38,140 bases of DNA from Treponema sp. (GTDB lineage Bacteria > Spirochaetota > Spirochaetia > Treponematales > Breznakiellaceae). This document shows, piece after piece, positions 29,461 to 38,140 of this stretch (position 1 is the stretch's first letter; every line of letters begins with the position of its first letter). The position numbers and the translations under genes were made by a program. Below the pieces are notes generated by a model, which ran no database searches, was not told the origin of the DNA, and saw nothing but the letters and a program-made list of their open reading frames with translations. The DNA lies in the NCBI GenBank assembly GCA_031274285.1, contig JAISQJ010000126.1, positions 1 to 38,140 on the forward strand, in the 5' to 3' direction.

Positions 29461-29532
29461 GCGGCTGTCGTATAACGGCTATTACCCCAGCCTTCCAAGC
29501 TGGAGACGAGGGTTCGACTCCCTTCAGCCGCT
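29461..29532 (+). tRNA. tRNA-Gly (anticodon UCC)
   Basis: A 72-base cloverleaf. The 7-bp acceptor stem is GCGGCTG / CAGCCGC with discriminator T. The anticodon stem is CCAGC / GCTGG around loop CTTCCAA, giving anticodon TCC. The T stem GAGGG / CCCTT closes the loop TTCGACT. The 3' CCA is not encoded. It reads GGA/GGG glycine codons. Confidence 0.95.
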
Positions 29533-29546
29533 TTAACCAAAACACA

Positions 29547-29581
29547 GGGTCAGCCCTCCCTTCAAAGGCGGCCGCTGACCC
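29547..29581 (-). terminator. Inverted repeat at the end of the glycan operon
   Basis: GGGTCAGC (29547-29554) pairs with GCTGACCC (29574-29581), an 8-bp perfect stem with a 19-base GC-rich loop. It spans the last codons and stop of the exported protein gene. On the minus strand a TGTGTTTTGG follows. It could end transcription from both sides. Confidence 0.45.
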
Positions 29582-30374
29582 CGTCAATAGCCCAGCCGAG
29601 AATCACCTCCAGCCTTTTTTGGATGGCGGAGGGTATATCTATCTTTGAGGCAACAAAATCGGAAACTTCGGCGCCGCTTATGTTGTAGATCAGGACTCCC
29701 TCTTTGACAGGCTCAAAATAAAACTGGGCAACGAAACATCCGGCTTTAATTACCGGAAAAAAGATATAGCTCAGATCCCGGTTATTTGACAGGCTGTAGG
29801 TAAAACCGCGCTCCTCCTTCTTAACTTCCACCTGATAATAGGAATAGCTAAAGTTGGCGTCCTTTACCCTGATATAAATGGTTTCCGAGCCGGGCAGGCT
29901 GCTCAGGGGGGGCGGGTCTTCCTTTACCGATGTTCTCCTGGAATTTTCCAGGCGGGTGGATTCTTCAAAAAGGGGTATATCAGCTTTGCGGGTTTCCGAG
30001 TGGTATAAGCGTCCCCCCAGGGCGCTGATATGGCGAAGCCCGTTGTAAATATCGACCGGGGCCATGGGTCCGGAGGGGTAGGGTATGACCGCGAGACTTT
30101 CCGCTACCACCGAAGGCTTAAGGCGGCCGATGCCGGATCGAAACCGGGGATCGATACCCGAGGCTTCCAGGGTTTGGGGGTTGTTACGGTAGGAAGCGAA
30201 ATATCCTTCAGAAGAAAAGGCTTTTGCCCTTACCTCCGCATCCAGGGCGGGGAATATTTCATCGATAGAGCGCAGGGAGGATTGGGCCAGCCCATCCGCG
30301 CTGTTTTGGGGAAATAAATAGACAACAGAAGAAACAAAGATCGCACAAAAAAAAGAAAAAGACCTTTTCCTCAT
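29562..30374 (-). CDS. Exported protein of unknown function, last gene of the glycan operon
   Basis: A 270-residue protein from the chosen start. It begins [26 protein letters not shown], a signal peptide (span 1-26 or so), so it should be periplasmic or on the outer side. The body is mixed alpha/beta with IPYPSG, DIYNGLRHISALGGRLYHSETRK, IYIRVKDANFSYSYYQVEV and GVLIYNISGAEVSDFVASKID. I do not know the family. AAGGAG lies 7 bases before the ATG at 30374, which decides against the longer frame at 30440 inside the priming transferase. Its ATG overlaps the priming transferase stop by 1 base, so it is coupled to sugar assembly. A role in the export or fate of the glycan is inferred from position. 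Confidence 0.75.
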   Translation of the reverse strand: MRKRSFSFFCAIFVSSVVYLFPQNSADGLAQSSLRSIDEIFPALDAEVRAKAFSSEGYFASYRNNPQTLEASGIDPRFRSGIGRLKPSVVAESLAVIPYPSGPMAPVDIYNGLRHISALGGRLYHSETRKADIPLFEESTRLENSRRTSVKEDPPPLSSLPGSETIYIRVKDANFSYSYYQVEVKKEERGFTYSLSNNRDLSYIFFPVIKAGCFVAQFYFEPVKEGVLIYNISGAEVSDFVASKIDIPSAIQKRLEVILGWAIDGVSGRL

Positions 30375-31828
30375 CAATAGGCTCCTTTCCCTTTTATAAC
30401 AACGCCTATGGTCTTTAGTAACACCCACAGATCCAGCCATACCGACCAGCTTTGAAGGTAATAGGTATCAAAGGCTATCCTATCGGTATAGTCTGTATCC
30501 GAGCGGCCCGATACCTGCCATAAGCCGGTGAGGCCGGGCTTAACGGAGAAAATGTAATCGAAGTTTTTTCCGTACTTTTCCACTTCCGCCTCGACTACGG
30601 GCCTGGGACCGACCAGGCTCATATCGCCTTTAAGGATATTGATAAGCTGGGGAAATTCGTCAAAACTGGTGCGCCGCAGGAATTTTCCGATAGCCGTTAT
30701 CCGGGGGTCATTCTTTAACTTGTGATTAGATTCCCACTCCCTGCGCAGTTCCGGAGTCTCATTAAGCAGGTTTTTTAGCACCTCCTGGGAATTGTTGACC
30801 ATGGATCGGAACTTATAGGCAATAAAATACCGGCGGTTTCTCCCCAGTCTTTGATGGCCGTAGAGAACCGGTCCCGGCGAACTCAGTTTTACCAAGAGGG
30901 CGATGAGGAGCAGCAGGGGAAGAATGACCATTCCGCCGATAATCACGAAAGATAAATCCATAAACCGCTTCATGGCGAGGTTCCAGGACATCTTGAGTTT
31001 ATGACTGGTTACAAGGCCAAGAACACCGTCAAAATCCCGTACCGACATCCAGATATTAGTAACATTAAAGAAGGTCGGAATAAAAACGGAATACCGGAAG
31101 GCGGAAACCGAATAATTAAGGAGATGGGATAAATCATCGCCGGAAAGCTCCGGCATGGCGACAAAGGCCATGCGTATCCTGAACCGGCTGACTATTTCGG
31201 GACCTATCGAAGTATCGTGAATGACGGGAACCCCCCGGTAAGCATCATCAAACACCGCCCTTTCCTCCGGCTTATTATCAAGAATGAGAACCGGCGTATA
31301 GCCGATCCGCCTGCTGTCTAAAAGCCTGTCTATGACAAGATGTCCGGTTGGGCCGCTGCCGTAAATAACCGCCGGGATTTTTCCAAGCTTGGTCCAGCTT
31401 AAGATGTTGAACATCATTTCACGCATAAGGATAAGGATCACGGGGGAACAGAGAAAACTAATAATAAAGGCAATCGATATGGCGTCAAATTCCTGATCTT
31501 CAATATACCGGGAAAAGATGATCCCCCCGTGGGCCAGCACGGAGCTGACGGTAAAGTGGCGCAGTTCCTCCGACGGGGCAAGGGCAATCCCCGGATAGAG
31601 GCCGTTTGCCTGGAAGAAAATGATAAAAACCGGCAGATAAGGCCAATAGGTGACAAAGGATTTGAAGTTGATAGCGGAAATATCATACAGGTTGACCAGA
31701 AAAAAGCTGGTCCCGAAGGACAGCATGATTCCAAATAGATCGGAAAGTACAAGGGCAGTTGAGATGAAGGCCGAACTGGTCCGATTGTAACGGCGGGAGT
31801 ACCAGTTTTCAAATTCCCTGATGTCCAT
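30374..31828 (-). CDS. WbaP-type undecaprenyl-phosphate sugar phosphotransferase
   Basis: A 484-residue polyprenyl-phosphate hexose-1-phosphate transferase that starts glycan repeat units on undecaprenyl phosphate at the inner membrane. The N-terminal half has about four membrane spans (20-45, 60-75, 90-107, 118-137), followed by a Rossmann-like CoA-binding domain ([16 protein letters not shown], near 155-170). Then one further span and the catalytic domain follow: [54 protein letters not shown]-type [19 protein letters not shown], and [13 protein letters not shown]. WbaP-like proteins favour galactose-1-phosphate, but sugar type is not certain here. It sits 7 bases after the first GT4 gene. 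Confidence 0.93.
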
Positions 31829-31835
31829 GACCCTA

Positions 31836-32933
31836 TTATACCCTTATTCTTTCATTTATGATACCAGTTATCCGTTTCTTAAAGGATTCCCGGGAGAACT
31901 GTCTGACATGCTCCGAGAAAGCCTCCCGTCCGGAAAAAGATAGTTCGATTTCTTCGAATTTGTCCATAGCGCCAATCAATGCGGCGGGATTCTGTTCGTC
32001 AAAGAAGATTCCGGTGACCCCCTCCTTTACGGTATCCAGAGCGCCCCCCTGCCGGAAGGCGATTACCGGGCAGCCCGCGGCGTTGGCCTCCACGGGGACT
32101 ATGCCGAAATCTTCTATGCCGGGAAAAAGCAAAGCCCTGGCGCGGGAGAAAAGGGAAACAAGCTCCTCGTCGTCAATTTTCCCCAGAAACTTCACCAGGG
32201 ATGTTTTCCGGTACCGGCGGAGTTCTTTTTTCCTGATCCCCGATCCGGCCACCAGGAGCCTGCGGCCGCTGGCAATGCAGGCTTCAATGGCGATATCCGC
32301 CCGTTTGTAACCGGCAAGCTGGCCAAAGAAGAGATAAAAATCCCCGGTCCGGCGCGGAACTGAAAGGAAACGTTCAATGGATACGGGGGGGTATACTATC
32401 TCCGCGCCGCGGTTATAAACACGGGCGATCCGTTTTGCCACATAGCGGGAATTGGCGATAAAACGATCCACCATATTGGCGGAACTTACATCCCACAGCC
32501 GCAGTCCCGGAATAAGACGCCGCATAAAAAATTTGATCAGAGGGCTGGTATTTCTGAAATATTCATGATACATGTCCCAGAGGTAGCGCATAGGACTGTG
32601 GCAATAGCAGATATGGTAGGCATCGGGGTTCGGCACAACCCCCTTTGCCGGACCTGACTCGCTGGAGATAACCAGGTCATATCCCTGAAGGTTAAAATCC
32701 ATAAGGGCATTAGGCATAAGGGGCATGTAAAACTGATACATTTTTTTTGCAAAGGGCAGAGTGTTGATGTAGGAACAATATACCCGGCGATCCCTGATAA
32801 TGGGCGAAACCGCCGCGGGATTGTATACATGGGTGTAAATATCCGCCTGGGGATACAATTCCAGCAGCGCCTCCAGCACTTTTTCCCCGCCCCGCATGCC
32901 GGTAAGCCAATAATGAACAATGGCAACTTTCAT
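31836..32933 (-). CDS. GT4 glycosyltransferase (WbaZ-like)
   Basis: A 365-residue GT-B enzyme of family GT4. The opening KVAIVHYWLTGMRGGEKVLEALLELYP is the WbaZ-type mannosyltransferase look (span, first 28 residues). CYCHSPMRYLWDMYHEYF and a C-terminal FPGIEDFGIVPVEANAAGCPVIAFRQGGALDTV (EX7E-like donor site) follow. It would add a hexose from an NDP-sugar to the lipid-linked chain in the cytosol. Mannose is the guess by family. It overlaps the second GT4 by 4 bases and lies 7 bases before the priming transferase. Confidence 0.88.
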   Translation of the reverse strand: MKVAIVHYWLTGMRGGEKVLEALLELYPQADIYTHVYNPAAVSPIIRDRRVYCSYINTLPFAKKMYQFYMPLMPNALMDFNLQGYDLVISSESGPAKGVVPNPDAYHICYCHSPMRYLWDMYHEYFRNTSPLIKFFMRRLIPGLRLWDVSSANMVDRFIANSRYVAKRIARVYNRGAEIVYPPVSIERFLSVPRRTGDFYLFFGQLAGYKRADIAIEACIASGRRLLVAGSGIRKKELRRYRKTSLVKFLGKIDDEELVSLFSRARALLFPGIEDFGIVPVEANAAGCPVIAFRQGGALDTVKEGVTGIFFDEQNPAALIGAMDKFEEIELSFSGREAFSEHVRQFSRESFKKRITGIINERIRV

Positions 32934-34012
32934 GGTTTTATCCCGCTCTCTCCGGCAAAAGCATGTATAATAACCGAGGCCGTTTTATTAAAAGTGTATT
33001 TATTAAGCAGGTGATCCGGCAAAATCAGCGGCTGGTAATTTCCCATATTAAGGAGCTTAAGCATCTTTTCTTTTAAGTCGGCCGCGTCGGCGGCGCGGAA
33101 ATAGGTAACCGGGAATCCGGCGTATATCTCCTTAAAAACAGGAATATCGGAAATTAGTACCCTGGTGCCAAGGGCCATCGCCTCCAGCGGCGGAATGCCG
33201 AACCCCTCGTAAAGACTGGGCTGTACCAGAAGGGCGGCCCCGGCAAGCAGATTCCTAAGCTCCCCGTCGGTAATAAATCCGGTAAATTCAACGGCATTTC
33301 CACCGGATTCTTTTATTTTAGCGTCTGCAGCCCCGTCAAAGCTGCGGAAGTTATCCTTGTTTCCCACGATGACCAGTTTATGCGTTAGTCCTTCCCCGCG
33401 GGCATTAAAAAAGGCTTCCATCAGTGTTGAAAGGTCTTTGTGTTTTTTTATGTTGCCGACAAATAGAATGGTTTTGGTCTTTTTAGGCCGTATTGCCGAT
33501 TCCCGTAAATAGGGCAGCAGGGCGTCATACGTTACGATAACCGGCTTTTTAGTACCAAGATGATATTCAATCCGGGACTTGGAAAAATTAGAAACGGTAA
33601 AAACAATTTTTGAGCGTCTATAGGCTCGTTTGTAAAAAAACATACGGACAAGCAAACCCAAGGGGGATGTCAATTCCGGCATATCGGGAAAAACGATGTC
33701 GTGGATGGTGGTAAAGACGGGAACCGCAATGAAGGATGGAACATTAAAGAACGGGCTGTAGTAAAGATCCGAATGGTTTATGGCCCTTCGTATGCGGGAG
33801 GGGAAGAAAAGCAATTCTTTAACGGAAAAAGGCCTTATCGGGCAATCAATAATACTAAAATTAGTATAATCGGCGGTATGAGGTTTTATTTTTTGAGAAG
33901 AACCGATTAAAAAAAAGGTATTGGGCGATGAAAGAAAATAAGGCAAGCAGCCGCGAAGGTAAACGCCGACCCCGCTAGAATCTATGTGCCTGCAGTCAAT
34001 GGCGATGGTCAT
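32930..34012 (-). CDS. GT4 glycosyltransferase
   Basis: A 360-residue GT-B enzyme. Its N-terminal domain has DCRHIDSSGVGVYLRG and PVFTTIHDIVFPDMPE. The C-terminal half shows KTILFVGNIKKHKDLSTLMEAF and PSLYEGFGIPPLEAMALGTRVLISDIPVFKEI, with the E-x7-E donor pair of GT4 (EGFGIPPLE). Donor and acceptor sugar are unknown. Start and stop overlap both neighbours by ATGA-type 4-base overlaps, so it is made with the rest of the operon. Base composition is lower in GC than the housekeeping part. Confidence 0.88.
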   Translation of the reverse strand: MTIAIDCRHIDSSGVGVYLRGCLPYFLSSPNTFFLIGSSQKIKPHTADYTNFSIIDCPIRPFSVKELLFFPSRIRRAINHSDLYYSPFFNVPSFIAVPVFTTIHDIVFPDMPELTSPLGLLVRMFFYKRAYRRSKIVFTVSNFSKSRIEYHLGTKKPVIVTYDALLPYLRESAIRPKKTKTILFVGNIKKHKDLSTLMEAFFNARGEGLTHKLVIVGNKDNFRSFDGAADAKIKESGGNAVEFTGFITDGELRNLLAGAALLVQPSLYEGFGIPPLEAMALGTRVLISDIPVFKEIYAGFPVTYFRAADAADLKEKMLKLLNMGNYQPLILPDHLLNKYTFNKTASVIIHAFAGESGIKP

Positions 34013-35316
34013 GGTTTGTTGAATTTATTAACAAAGAATTCCATCAGATTTTGATATATATCCATATTATATCCGTCAATACCTTTGATTTGATTGCGGC
34101 ACGTATGGCTTAATAGTACCGGGCGGCAGCCGGCGGCAATGGCTGCTTGAACGTCCCTTAGATTATCTCCTACCATGTAAGACTGCGACAGGTCAATATT
34201 GTATTTCTCCGCTGCCTGAAAAATCAAGCCCGGCTTTGGCTTACGGCAAGAGCAGTCAATCTTGTATTCCGGCCTTTCACCGGGGAAACCTTTATCCGGA
34301 TGGTGAGGACAGAAAAAAATATCGTCCAGGTAGGCCCCCGACAAGCCCAGATCGGTTTCCAGTTTATTATGAATTTCTTCTAAATCTCCCAGGCTGACCT
34401 CCCCACGGGCAATTACCGGCTGATTGGTGATGACAATCGCAAGATAGCCGGAATTATTAATACCCTTCACCGCTTCTGCCGTACCGGGAAGTAATTCCAG
34501 GTCTTCACTTTTTTTGATAAAGCCGTTCATTACGTTTAATGTCCCGTCCCGATCAAGAAATACGGCCCTTTGGGGAAGGGAGAGATTTTTTGCCTTTACC
34601 AGCCCCGACTCAATATCCGTCTTAACCTGGTTGTATCTTTCAGGCGTTCCCATATCCTTAATATACTCAGGAGTCTTGTAGGCATAGATACGGCCTGATG
34701 CAACCAGGGGCTTAAGAATATCCCGGTCAAGGTCCACTTTACCGGGGTTGTAAGGAGTGTTTTGCCGGTAAAGCTTGAGCAGGTTTTTGTTCAGTAAATG
34801 TATTCCCGAATTGACTAAATTCTTATAGTAGCGGCGGGGATCCTCCTTATTGAGCCATGTAACAATGCGGCCAGAGTAATCAGGTACAATAATGGCGCTG
34901 TCGAATGGATGGCTATTTGGATGGACAGCAATAGTGGCATCGGCATTTCTATCCCTGTGAAATTTAATAAACCGTTCAAAATTAAAATCGAAAATAATAT
35001 CCCCGTTTACTAAAATAAAATCTTCACTTAATGAGGGGAGAAGAAGGGACAAGGCGCCTGCGGTACCCAGGGGTTCTTCTTCATGAAAATAATCTATAAC
35101 ACATCCGAATTTGTGTCCGTCCAGAAAATGATCTTTTATTACAGCCCCTAGATGGCCTGTTACCATAATAATATCGGTAAGGCCGTAACGTTTTAGGCAA
35201 TCCAACTGATATTCAAGAATAGGTTTATTGAAAAAGGGAATCATGGGTTTTGGAATATTATCCGCGATTTGGGCAATTCGTTTTCCCTTACCGCCGGCCA
35301 TGATAACAGTTTTCAA
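34009..35316 (-). CDS. Fusion of sugar nucleotidyltransferase and GmhB-type HAD phosphatase
   Basis: A 435-residue two-domain protein. Residues 1-235 form a nucleotidyltransferase: VIMAGGKGKRI with GGKGKR, KPMIPFFNKPILEYQL, EEPLGTAGAL, LVNGDIIFDF and PEYIKDMGTPERYNQ. Residues 248-425 form a HAD-IIIA phosphatase: FLDRDGTLN with D255 and D257, TNQPVIARGEVS, zinc ligands C336, H338, C355 and C357 (CPHHPD; CSCRKPKPG) as in GmhB, and MVGDNLRDVQAAIAAGCRP. This suits the NDP-heptose route, where a heptose bisphosphate loses its C7 phosphate and the 1-phosphate gets a nucleotide. The kinase and isomerase for that route are not visible in the window. Both domains look complete. A different sugar is possible. 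Confidence 0.86.
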   Translation of the reverse strand: MKTVIMAGGKGKRIAQIADNIPKPMIPFFNKPILEYQLDCLKRYGLTDIIMVTGHLGAVIKDHFLDGHKFGCVIDYFHEEEPLGTAGALSLLLPSLSEDFILVNGDIIFDFNFERFIKFHRDRNADATIAVHPNSHPFDSAIIVPDYSGRIVTWLNKEDPRRYYKNLVNSGIHLLNKNLLKLYRQNTPYNPGKVDLDRDILKPLVASGRIYAYKTPEYIKDMGTPERYNQVKTDIESGLVKAKNLSLPQRAVFLDRDGTLNVMNGFIKKSEDLELLPGTAEAVKGINNSGYLAIVITNQPVIARGEVSLGDLEEIHNKLETDLGLSGAYLDDIFFCPHHPDKGFPGERPEYKIDCSCRKPKPGLIFQAAEKYNIDLSQSYMVGDNLRDVQAAIAAGCRPVLLSHTCRNQIKGIDGYNMDIYQNLMEFFVNKFNKP

Positions 35317-36296
35317 AATTTTGTCTTCTTTAGCAAAGAAATAAGACGATAGGCCATGGACTCCAGGGTATTAAAAAGGCTTTTATGCCCTTTTTTGAGG
35401 CGCCGGAGCATGGAAAAAATGGAACCGTCAAGAAGCTCCAGGACATCCTTATCCGCTATGATCCTAGATCGCGGCTCGAAGGCAGATTTTGCATCATGGA
35501 GTTTTTGATACAGCCAGGAAGGAATGTCCCCCGTGTTCCTTATGGCCAGCAGGGCCGGTTCTGAAGCAAGGAGCAGGGGGGATGTTATGTAGACCAGGGA
35601 AGTGGCAAAGTAATGAATTATTTTTGCCCTATGTAAAAATGGAAGTCCGTTATTGGATATTTGGCAGTTCCATTCGCCGCCAATTTCCGAAATCATATTA
35701 TGCAATTCATAGTTTGCACGGTTAAACGAAGGCATGTCCTGGGAATTCCCCTCTTTCCTGCATATATTCCATAGAGCATGCCATTTTTCAAAAAAGCTAT
35801 GTGATTCCGGCGTGTCTTTGCAGTAGATAATACCGCCGTTGTAATAATTGCTGCAGGTTAGTATAAAATCAAAGCCAAGCCGCAAATTCTCATCAACAAA
35901 TTGCCGGTAGTAATGATGTTCCCTTAGTGGTACGTGGCAATCGGGGATGGCGCCGATTATTATATTTTCAGGAAAATCGCAATCAAGGCTGCCGCAAATG
36001 ACGGTATCGCAGTCGATATAGAGAAAGTTCCCTTCGATATACCGGCGCATGGAAGTTTTTATAAACCGGGAAGTTTCTTTCCGTGTCAATCCATTGGGGG
36101 AAGAAACAGTTATAATACTCGATGCAAGTTTTTCACATCCCGAACGGCGGCCTGATAATCCGGCCTTTGTTTCCGTATCAACCAATAGTATAACTTCCGC
36201 CGTGGGATTGTAAATCCTTAATGAAGCAAGCGAAAGGTAACATTGCTCATAAAAAAAGTCAGTATCACCGCTTACAAGGACATAGACATATTTCAT
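35313..36296 (-). CDS. GT-A/GT8-like glycosyltransferase
   Basis: A 327-residue protein with a GT-A fold look. It begins YVYVLVSGDTDFFYEQCYLSLASLRIYNP, and has the metal-binding DCDTVI (in LYIDCDTVICGSLD) typical of DxD enzymes. YYNGGIIYCKDTP and HRAKIIHYFATS (a His near the C-terminal part, also seen in GT8) follow. Donor sugar is unknown. It is the first of two neighbours with the same plan, with little direct likeness visible beyond the fold. It overlaps both neighbours by 4 bases. Confidence 0.75.
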   Translation of the reverse strand: MKYVYVLVSGDTDFFYEQCYLSLASLRIYNPTAEVILLVDTETKAGLSGRRSGCEKLASSIITVSSPNGLTRKETSRFIKTSMRRYIEGNFLYIDCDTVICGSLDCDFPENIIIGAIPDCHVPLREHHYYRQFVDENLRLGFDFILTCSNYYNGGIIYCKDTPESHSFFEKWHALWNICRKEGNSQDMPSFNRANYELHNMISEIGGEWNCQISNNGLPFLHRAKIIHYFATSLVYITSPLLLASEPALLAIRNTGDIPSWLYQKLHDAKSAFEPRSRIIADKDVLELLDGSIFSMLRRLKKGHKSLFNTLESMAYRLISLLKKTKF

Positions 36297-37150
36297 GGTC
36301 TTGATTTAAGAAGAGCCTTAATTATTTTCTTTATTGATTTTTTTATATCATATATGCTTATTATTTTTTTTAGAAAAAAAACAAGAGTAAACGGAATTCT
36401 TTCACCGCGGTCAACCAGATTGATTATCTTTTTATAAGGCAGCCTTTTTATATTCGTAAATCTGTATATTGATATTTTATCATGGGTTGTACGGCCCTTG
36501 GCGTGGACAATTTTAGTAGTACGCGGAATATAACTATTTTCACAGCTTACTATTTTATCTTCAAGATAACCTATTTTAAGCGATTTTTCCAGCGCCAGGG
36601 TTTCAACCATGGCCGGGGTTTCATGGGGAGGCGGCAGGTTGAGGGCAATGCGTTCATCCATCCGGTCAATCCATTTATGAATAAAAGCAAGGGCATTGGA
36701 GGTATTTACCGCAACAAATGATGCGATATAATCCATGCTCAGTCCGTCGGGACGGAGGAAGGGCTTGCTTCTCCGGCATAGCTGAATATCATAATTGGTA
36801 TTGATCAAATCGGAAAAATCTTCCATGATGATTGTGTCGCTGTCGATCATGACTACCGGAACATTGCCGTATTTTACTATGCGGCTGAGTATCCGGGTCT
36901 TCTCTCTTACCGCGTTGACCCATTCTTTTGAATGAATTGTATTCGAGCTTGTAACCGTGGATTCCGGGGGTAGAAGGGCGATTTTATCACTTAGGCCGGA
37001 AAGCGCGCTAATATTGCCGGAACTTAAGCCTAAATCCGCGATAAATATGGTTTTGATTTTTTTTAGATCGCAGGCCGCACAAAGAGAACTTAAAGAGATA
37101 TATAACAGGCGAAAATAAATATCATTGGCCACAAGTAATAGGTTATACAT
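36293..37150 (-). CDS. GT-A-like glycosyltransferase (second)
   Basis: A 285-residue protein related in plan to the downstream transferase. It begins YNLLLVANDIYFRLLYISLSSLCAACD, and has MIDSDTIIMEDFSD, the DxD metal motif. Later TKIVHAKG could be the His that helps bind the donor phosphate. The C-terminus is Lys/Ile-rich (SIYDIKKSIKKIIKALLK) and may form an amphipathic membrane-binding helix. The gene is the most AT-rich in the operon. It begins right after the stop of the ATP-grasp gene, with no gap. Confidence 0.72.
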   Translation of the reverse strand: MYNLLLVANDIYFRLLYISLSSLCAACDLKKIKTIFIADLGLSSGNISALSGLSDKIALLPPESTVTSSNTIHSKEWVNAVREKTRILSRIVKYGNVPVVMIDSDTIIMEDFSDLINTNYDIQLCRRSKPFLRPDGLSMDYIASFVAVNTSNALAFIHKWIDRMDERIALNLPPPHETPAMVETLALEKSLKIGYLEDKIVSCENSYIPRTTKIVHAKGRTTHDKISIYRFTNIKRLPYKKIINLVDRGERIPFTLVFFLKKIISIYDIKKSIKKIIKALLKSRP

Positions 37151-38089
37151 TTAAGCTAACCTGGTGCAGGGGGGTAAATATACCATGCCCCCCAATTTCA
37201 TGTCCCATTCCAGGGGTTTATACGAATTGAAACCATTCCCGTCATAAAGAGTAAATTCTCCAAAATAGATAGCATCATCAATTGAATACCAGTCTATCCG
37301 CAATTGAGGAAATCCGGATGAAAGATATTTTGATAAAGAAAGCATTAGCTCCAATTTGATGGGTTTGTTAAGCACAATACATGGATCGGTAGGGCAATCA
37401 TTTTCCAATGGCTGATATTCCCATCCGGGGGAATAGAAATTTCTTTTATGGCAGGCGAATCTGTCAATATCGACCTCTATGAGATTTGGTTGTCCGCCAA
37501 AACAGAATATTTTATAATCCTTCAGGTAGGTTTTAGATTCATCGGCCATATACTTTTCCGCAATTATTCTCGGCGTAATATTTTTATAACACCATTCACG
37601 ACCGTGATAGTAATAGTTACGCCGCAGTCTTTTTTTTAACATTGTTTTTGTTTTATGAATGTCAAAAGACATTTTATCATGACAAATAACAATGCTTCCC
37701 GAATCGTGCGTACATTTCAGAACAAACTGTTCAGGCAGCGTGTCAAAATCGATCTCATCAACATTATCCCATACGCCTAACAGGGGTATAAGATATTTTT
37801 CACCTATGGATTGGGCGATATATTTTCTAACCTCATATTTATCCGACATGACTGTATATACAGGTCTTCTGTCATATAATTTAAGCCACTGCAATTTTTC
37901 GTTATAGGTTTGGGGATCTTTAAGATTTAGCTTTTTTTTCATCAATACACGGAACTTTAACGCAAGAAATAATTTATCCGGGATTATATGGGAAATTCCG
38001 GATTCTAAAAATAATAATAAAAACTTCGACGGAACGAGGCCGGGATTAGTTAAATACCTGAGGGTTTTCGTAAACAGCACGGCTTTCAT
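37151..38089 (-). CDS. TupA-like ATP-grasp protein
   Basis: A 312-residue protein of the TupA-like ATP-grasp type found in polysaccharide clusters. Landmarks are LNLKDPQTYNEKLQWLKLYDRRP, MSDKYEVRKYI, PEQFVLKCTHDSGSIVICHDK (ATP-binding lysine and Gly-like loop), IAEKYM, LKDYKIFCFGG and RIDWYSIDDAIYFGEFTLYDGNGF (acidic metal-binding residues). The family is named after TupA, linked to teichuronopeptide formation in Bacillus, where it is thought to join amino acids to sugar carboxylates. Many copies are labelled as glycosyltransferases without proof. It is the first visible gene of the operon; only 51 bases upstream are within the window. No ribosome site is clear. Confidence 0.85.
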   Translation of the reverse strand: MKAVLFTKTLRYLTNPGLVPSKFLLLFLESGISHIIPDKLFLALKFRVLMKKKLNLKDPQTYNEKLQWLKLYDRRPVYTVMSDKYEVRKYIAQSIGEKYLIPLLGVWDNVDEIDFDTLPEQFVLKCTHDSGSIVICHDKMSFDIHKTKTMLKKRLRRNYYYHGREWCYKNITPRIIAEKYMADESKTYLKDYKIFCFGGQPNLIEVDIDRFACHKRNFYSPGWEYQPLENDCPTDPCIVLNKPIKLELMLSLSKYLSSGFPQLRIDWYSIDDAIYFGEFTLYDGNGFNSYKPLEWDMKLGGMVYLPPCTRLA

Positions 38090-38140
38090 AGATAAAAACG
38101 CCGGACAATCCGTTTTGGCAGGAAAAATACTATTTTTTTA
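38090..38140 (-). other. AT-rich upstream edge of the glycan operon
   Basis: These 51 bases before the ATP-grasp gene are AT-rich with a T-run at the end (38133-38139). No further frame is certain. A promoter or another operon gene may lie beyond the window. Confidence 0.3.

Follow-up and report, generated by a model that had tools for sequence, protein, structure and literature searches.

A WbaP-type glycan operon, probably the 3' end of a variable locus for a surface glycan, in a treponeme-like spirochaete lacking lipid A

Contig JAISQJ010000126.1 of a Treponema sp. assembly (GCA_031274285.1, 83.5% complete) was analysed over its full length of 38,140 bases, referred to here as the window. 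Its minus strand carries eight open reading frames (ORFs), running from 38089 down to 29562, with the gene content of a glycan-synthesis operon. An initial annotation of this DNA had described eight tightly coupled reverse-strand genes; all eight were present, and each junction was checked on the sequence. The features are given below with the basis of their assignment. Gene calls are our own longest-ORF picks, the DUF6675 gene being listed from an internal ATG.

29562..30374, minus strand: DUF6675 protein (PF20380), 270 amino acids from the internal ATG; Pfam, alignment, AlphaFold2, Foldseek/VIA
30374..31828, minus strand: WbaP-type polyprenyl-phosphate sugar-1-phosphate transferase (glycan primer), 484 amino acids; TIGR03022, PDB 8t53
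31836..32933, minus strand: gt4a, GT4 glycosyltransferase, WbaZ-like, 365 amino acids; Pfam, PDB 2f9f, cluster c4
32930..34012, minus strand: gt4b, GT4 glycosyltransferase, 360 amino acids; Pfam, cluster c5
34009..35316, minus strand: fusion of an NTP-transferase (HddC/mannose-1-phosphate guanylyltransferase-like) and a GmhB-type HAD 7-phosphatase, 435 amino acids; Pfam, NCBIfam, PDB
35313..36296, minus strand: GT8-like GT-A glycosyltransferase, DCD motif, 327 amino acids; PF01501 just under cut-off
36293..37150, minus strand: PF03407-like GT-A nucleotide-sugar transferase, DSD motif, 285 amino acids; Pfam
37151..38089, minus strand: TupA-like ATP-grasp ligase, 312 amino acids, gene of lowest GC content (0.371); Pfam, invariant residues
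28510..29370, plus strand: mutY-like gene, convergent neighbour and conserved chromosomal edge marker; profile matches, homologues beside relatives' loci
29461..29532, plus strand: tRNA-Gly(tcc), between the edge and DUF6675

No bases separate tupA from the PF03407-like gene. Four junctions (PF03407/gt8, gt8/fusion, fusion/gt4b and gt4b/gt4a) are 4-base overlaps, and a 7-base gap lies between gt4a and wbaP. The gaps and overlaps first assigned were retained with one correction, the DUF6675 gene most likely starting at 30374 rather than at 30440: its overlap with wbaP is 1 base with the internal ATG at 30374 and 67 bases with the longest ORF from 30440. The drift toward AT in the upstream genes was also confirmed. 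From DUF6675 to tupA, GC content reads 0.513, 0.487, 0.516, 0.456, 0.436, 0.433, 0.395 and 0.371, and GC content at third codon positions (GC3) drops from 0.576 (DUF6675) to 0.383 (tupA); seven window genes outside the operon lie at 0.62-0.78. As the window is the complete contig and ends at 38140, the sequence stops 51 bases ahead of the tupA start, which cuts the operon and leaves the region beyond unseen.

The primer assignment made from the initial reading proved correct. WbaP scores 447.9 bits with NCBIfam TIGR03022 (cut-off 403), which places it in the WbaP subfamily, and 215.7 bits with Pfam Bac_transf; it matches PDB 8t53 with an E value of 1.3e-70. Both gt4a and gt4b match Pfam Glycos_transf_1, the best PDB match of gt4a being 2f9f, "first mannosyl transferase (wbaZ-1)" (E 8.6e-15). 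The PF03407 protein lies above its Pfam cut-off (34.1 bits against 22). The GT8-like protein falls slightly below that of PF01501 (22.7 bits against 24.3), and a PDB search with it gave only two chance-level matches. DxD-type motifs are seen in the translations of both GT-A proteins.

The ATP-grasp protein is a genuine TupA family member, matching PF14305 with 253 bits (cut-off 25) over profile positions 1-239 of 241. No PDB homologue was found at E values up to 1. Residues K84, K125, E178, D191, R264, D266 and E278, invariant in a 13-sequence spirochaete alignment that contains the window sequence itself, are all kept and may serve in ATP or metal binding. PF14305 exceeds its cut-off in 24 of 392 Spirochaetota genomes; among 39 near-relative genomes searched with the protein, the tupA gene occurs in our organism alone. 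Low GC content together with this rarity suggests that tupA is a horizontally gained decoration gene. In other spirochaetes TupA domains are fused to GT2 (locus L123), Wzy_C (L113, L116), PF03407 plus GT8 (L115) or RgpF (L129). The L115 fusion (L115:1-2733) is a single open frame of at least 911 amino acids that joins PF03407, GT8 and TupA, three separate neighbouring genes in the window. It was considered as a direct homologue of these three genes and rejected, since the glycosyltransferase domains could not be aligned (best score 25.4 bits).

A chemical precedent exists in Campylobacter jejuni, where the TupA-like C-terminal domain of Cj1438 joins glucuronate to serinol phosphate or ethanolamine phosphate as an amide, using ATP and acting after glycosyl transfer (PMC11800397, PMC11800379). 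Because this domain (Cj1438C) is a TupA-like ATP-grasp that amidates capsular glucuronate, an amide link on the window glycan is plausible by analogy. Amide ligase activity has been demonstrated for Cj1438C alone, and the precedent does not prove the substrate of the window protein. The C. jejuni HS:2 capsule locus resembles the window in having glycosyltransferase genes and nucleotide-sugar genes of the manno-heptose type alongside a TupA-like ATP-grasp (PMC11800397, PMC11800379), and differs in that its capsule is anchored on poly-3-deoxy-D-manno-oct-2-ulosonic acid (Kdo)/diacylglycerol phosphate (PMC11800397). Cj1438 is moreover a single GT2-linker-TupA chain with known amine donors, whereas the tupA of the window is separate from the glycosyltransferase genes. 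The HS:2 locus is not known to have a WbaP.

The fusion protein carries Pfam NTP_transferase and HAD domains in one chain. Its phosphatase half aligns with PDB GmhB 2gmw (E 8.8e-34), including the zinc-loop and catalytic motifs, and scores just under the NCBIfam cut-offs for NF006506 (164.4 against 178) and TIGR00213 (145.6 against 149.6). The NTP half lies below both relevant cut-offs, with 88.3 against 300 for HddC (NF049965) and 129.8 against 440 for mannose-1-phosphate guanylyltransferase. The fusion ORF starts with TTG, within the 4-base TTGA overlap (35313-35316) that it shares with the GT8-like gene. In locus L025, the closest relative (58%), a GT8-like gene also lies upstream of the heptose genes, and the order is GT8-like gene, kinase, isomerase, fusion; in the window the GT8-like gene directly abuts the fusion. 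The TTG junction, placed where L025 has its kinase and isomerase, may be what a past loss or rearrangement of genes left behind. The L025 kinase (L025:1707-2750) scores 436.9 bits with the HddA profile, under the cut-off of 600. Elsewhere in our own genome (C171) there is a GmhA-like isomerase, 40% identical to the GmhA of the loci (TIGR00441, 142.4 against a cut-off of 209.45).

DUF6675 matches PF20380 with 90.1 bits (cut-off 27), a family found above cut-off in 169 of 392 Spirochaetota genomes; a literature search on DUF6675 returned no paper. The protein begins with a signal-like helix, and no lipobox was seen. An AlphaFold2 model, built from 11 sequences of which that of L061 is cut at its contig end, has a mean predicted local distance difference test score (pLDDT) of 83.7 and a predicted template-modelling score (pTM) of 0.79. 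The best Foldseek E value was 3.1e-4. VIA-align gave Z scores of 11-12 against START/Bet v1-like proteins, with alignments that span about 140-168 residues and show 5-14% identity (best row: Z 12.0, 158 residues aligned, root-mean-square deviation 3.2); according to the tool, models without a clear match typically give Z scores of 7-8. DUF6675 is thus predicted to be an exported protein with the helix-grip fold of START/Bet v1-like lipid-binding proteins, from which it differs in its export, in belonging to a spirochaete family and in the low identity of the rows shown. Fold, signal-like N-terminus and gene context make it a candidate lipid carrier. In our own genome a second DUF6675 copy directly follows yidC and jag/khpB (contig C139; L174:1225-4741). 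The row yidC-jag-DUF6675 was found in nine (L181-L187, L197 and L198) of 20 stretches that we chose around DUF6675 matches; the other 11, some of them chosen as second copies, lack it.

A search with the fusion protein collected 80 loci, many of them titled Treponema, Spirochaetaceae or Spirochaetia, with Lachnospiraceae and Prevotella among the other titles; termite-gut assemblies presumably make up many of the Treponema records. Before counting, tblastn matches above an E value of 1e-8 and ORFs shorter than 90 amino acids were dropped, and the best query alone was kept at each overlapping place. Since the relatives were found through the fusion protein, the counts are uninformative on loci without it. 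The common unit across the loci is GHMP kinase–SIS isomerase–nucleotidyltransferase/HAD–GT4–GT4–WbaP–DUF6675, with varying genes upstream. The clusters were found in 63 (GHMP kinase), 68 (SIS isomerase), 33 (gt4a, c4), 29 (gt4b, c5), 16 (wbaP) and 10 (DUF6675) of the 80 loci; many of the contigs are short. In 48 of the 80 loci the fusion is directly preceded by both kinase and isomerase; where at least 2 kb upstream of the fusion is available (n = 70), both partners are present in 45 loci, one in 22 and neither in three.

In other Treponema and Spirochaetia records the core from the fusion through GT4, GT4 and WbaP to DUF6675 recurs with variable genes upstream. Six such loci (L025, L026, L044, L058, L066 and L076) have the core fusion-GT4-(GT4)-WbaP-DUF6675 in identical order. 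They differ from the window in keeping the kinase and isomerase (L076, which starts inside the fusion, cannot tell) and in lacking tupA and the PF03407 gene. Neither of these two genes gave a tblastn match in any of the 80 loci at an E value of 1e-8. The idea that the eight genes form one conserved system was therefore abandoned, tupA being confined to our own genome among the 39 and absent from all 80 loci. DUF6675 directly follows wbaP in all ten loci that hold it. A mutY-like gene marks the edge in four of the ten (L025, partially, L026, L066 and L076), accompanied by cytidylate kinase in L026 and L076 and by YicC and a Mur ligase in L066 and L076. Others have different neighbours (L044, L054, L058 and L060) or end there (L050 and L061), so that only some members of the group have the mutY edge. 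Upstream genes of lower GC3 are also seen in L025, L026 and L066; in L044, L052, L054 and L058 the glycan region is AT-rich throughout. Close to its glycan locus, one relative encodes a phosphoenolpyruvate mutase fused to a cytidylyltransferase-like domain (L048:3981-5285), which suggests phosphonate decoration in that relative.

Another family accompanies these loci. Cluster c3 comprises 49 proteins from 32 of the 80 loci, the product of L058:5657-8347 (about 890 amino acids) among them, in which a YidC insertase domain is fused to an alkaline-phosphatase-superfamily domain; they lie in or near the glycan loci. A c3 model (pTM 0.71) matches PbgA, MCR-1/EptA and LtaS/LtaP-type enzymes among many sulfatases, and D498, D772 and H773, invariant in 21 sequences, are candidate metal ligands. 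The literature matches listed for YidC and sulfatase held nothing relevant. Our own genome has its c3 copy on contig C2 (C2:15641-18397, in L172), in a three-gene operon (L172:12515-18397) that also encodes a cytidylyltransferase/CobD-like pyridoxal-phosphate (PLP) fusion and a PF04464 CDP-glycerol-transferase-like protein. The closest PDB entry to the PLP half is 6oux, "threonine phosphate decarboxylase-like enzyme". In relatives, members of the clusters of this operon sit inside the glycan locus. C2 was considered as the missing upstream half of the window locus; this was not shown, and we take it as a separate locus because higher-GC genes without a match to glycan loci flank the operon on both sides. 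The C2 operon could possibly supply ethanolamine phosphate to TupA.

LpxC was found in none of 39 genomes (our own, 83.5% complete, and 38 relatives; 20 of the 39 reach a completeness of 90% or more with a contamination of 5% or less), with four of 14 controls positive, E. coli included. The expectation that treponemes lack classical lipopolysaccharide is thereby upheld for this group. Wzy_C exceeds its cut-off in two of the 39 genomes, neither from the family of our organism, and the related locus L033 encodes a Polysacc_synt protein. Two PF01943 matches in our own genome were rejected as flippases: that on C36 is over cut-off but lies within a MATE (MatE) protein, and that on C132 is under cut-off.

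Altogether, we favour, with a probability of about 0.6, the reading that the operon forms the 3' end of a variable locus for a surface glycan in a lipid-A-less, treponeme-like spirochaete, with a WbaP-primed, amide-decorated product. That product is most likely a surface glycolipid or capsule, probably heptose-bearing. WbaP would load the first sugar-phosphate onto a polyprenyl carrier, and the two conserved GT4 enzymes would lengthen the chain, probably from GDP-manno-heptose or GDP-mannose, to whose synthesis the fused nucleotidyltransferase/7-phosphatase would contribute. The two GT-A enzymes of the low-GC, strain-specific upstream genes would add branch sugars. TupA would form an ATP-driven amide, most simply between the carboxylate of a uronic acid and an amino-alcohol or amino acid. 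Export would deliver the glycan as a capsule or to an anchor other than lipid A, with DUF6675 working on the lipid side of this process. Several points weigh against this reading. The operon has no gene for making a uronic acid or supplying an amine. The GT-A proteins of the window cannot be aligned with those fused to TupA in L115, and the family combination alone is common. A START-like fold alone does not demonstrate lipid transport. In the 83.5%-complete assembly no convincing Wzx was found, and Wzy_C matches were all below cut-off. The heptose set is incomplete in the window, where kinase and isomerase are not adjacent to the fusion; an HddA-like heptose kinase was not found in our own assembly either, its sole GHMP protein being galactokinase-like (C188), an absence that at this completeness is no proof of loss. 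Lastly, the NTP half scores higher as mannose-1-phosphate guanylyltransferase than as HddC, both far below cut-off. The heptose can be called only probable, because the partner kinase and isomerase are missing beside the fusion.

The incomplete heptose set and the higher score as mannose-1-phosphate guanylyltransferase also suit a decaying or re-purposed locus, in which kinase and isomerase were lost and the fusion, deprived of its heptose substrate, acts on mannose-1-phosphate or is a relic. The rarity of loci with neither partner and the location of the isomerase homologue elsewhere in our own genome point the same way. Against this, all eight frames are open and coupled, the catalytic and zinc motifs of GmhB are intact, and kinase and isomerase may lie upstream of the cut at tupA in an incomplete assembly; we consider decay rather improbable. 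Somewhat less probable still is a protein glycosylation locus, in which proteins of the surface or the flagella, rather than a lipid or capsule, receive a WbaP-primed oligosaccharide from its polyprenyl carrier. The glycans of glycoproteins are also primed by WbaP-type enzymes, and a short glycan would fit the lack of lipid A and of a polymerase over cut-off in our own genome. However, none of the eight genes encodes an oligosaccharyltransferase-like protein, and the proteins scanned included one PMT_2 (dolichyl-mannosyltransferase-like) protein, from the relative L026 only. The WbaP and GT4 content likewise resembles O-antigen loci, but with LpxC absent from all 39 genomes and controls working the glycan cannot be an O-antigen on lipid A. 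A published survey agrees in placing the family Spirochaetaceae among those without Kdo2-lipid A genes (PMC3087551), and we rule out a classical O-antigen for practical purposes. A literature search on Treponema, WbaP and O-antigen gave no paper on the window locus, judged by title and abstract; the word heptose was in none of the matches listed for treponeme, termite and heptose; and PMC13067680, on termite-gut spirochaetes, contains none of six envelope terms.

A more speculative extension of the surface-glycan reading, which we regard as doubtful, is that lipid-A-less spirochaetes have a surface-glycolipid route of their own. DUF6675 would here act in the periplasm as a START-like shuttle, carrying a glycan linked to polyprenyl or diacylglycerol. 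Its ancestral copy would work beside YidC in the yidC-jag operon, and a second copy follows WbaP in the glycan locus, the place where many relatives also have the YidC domain fused to a phosphotransferase of EptA/LtaS/PbgA-like type.

In conclusion, this is an ordinary variable glycan locus in an unusual, lipid-A-less setting, its features of interest being the putative amide ligase and the exported protein with a predicted START-like fold. The treponeme outer membrane lacks lipid A, and the builders and carriers of its surface glycans are poorly known. The locus offers a concrete gene set for them, with a partly fixed chromosomal edge, a common core and swappable decoration genes; its putative amide ligase has a tested chemical precedent, and DUF6675 is a candidate lipid carrier with a testable fold.

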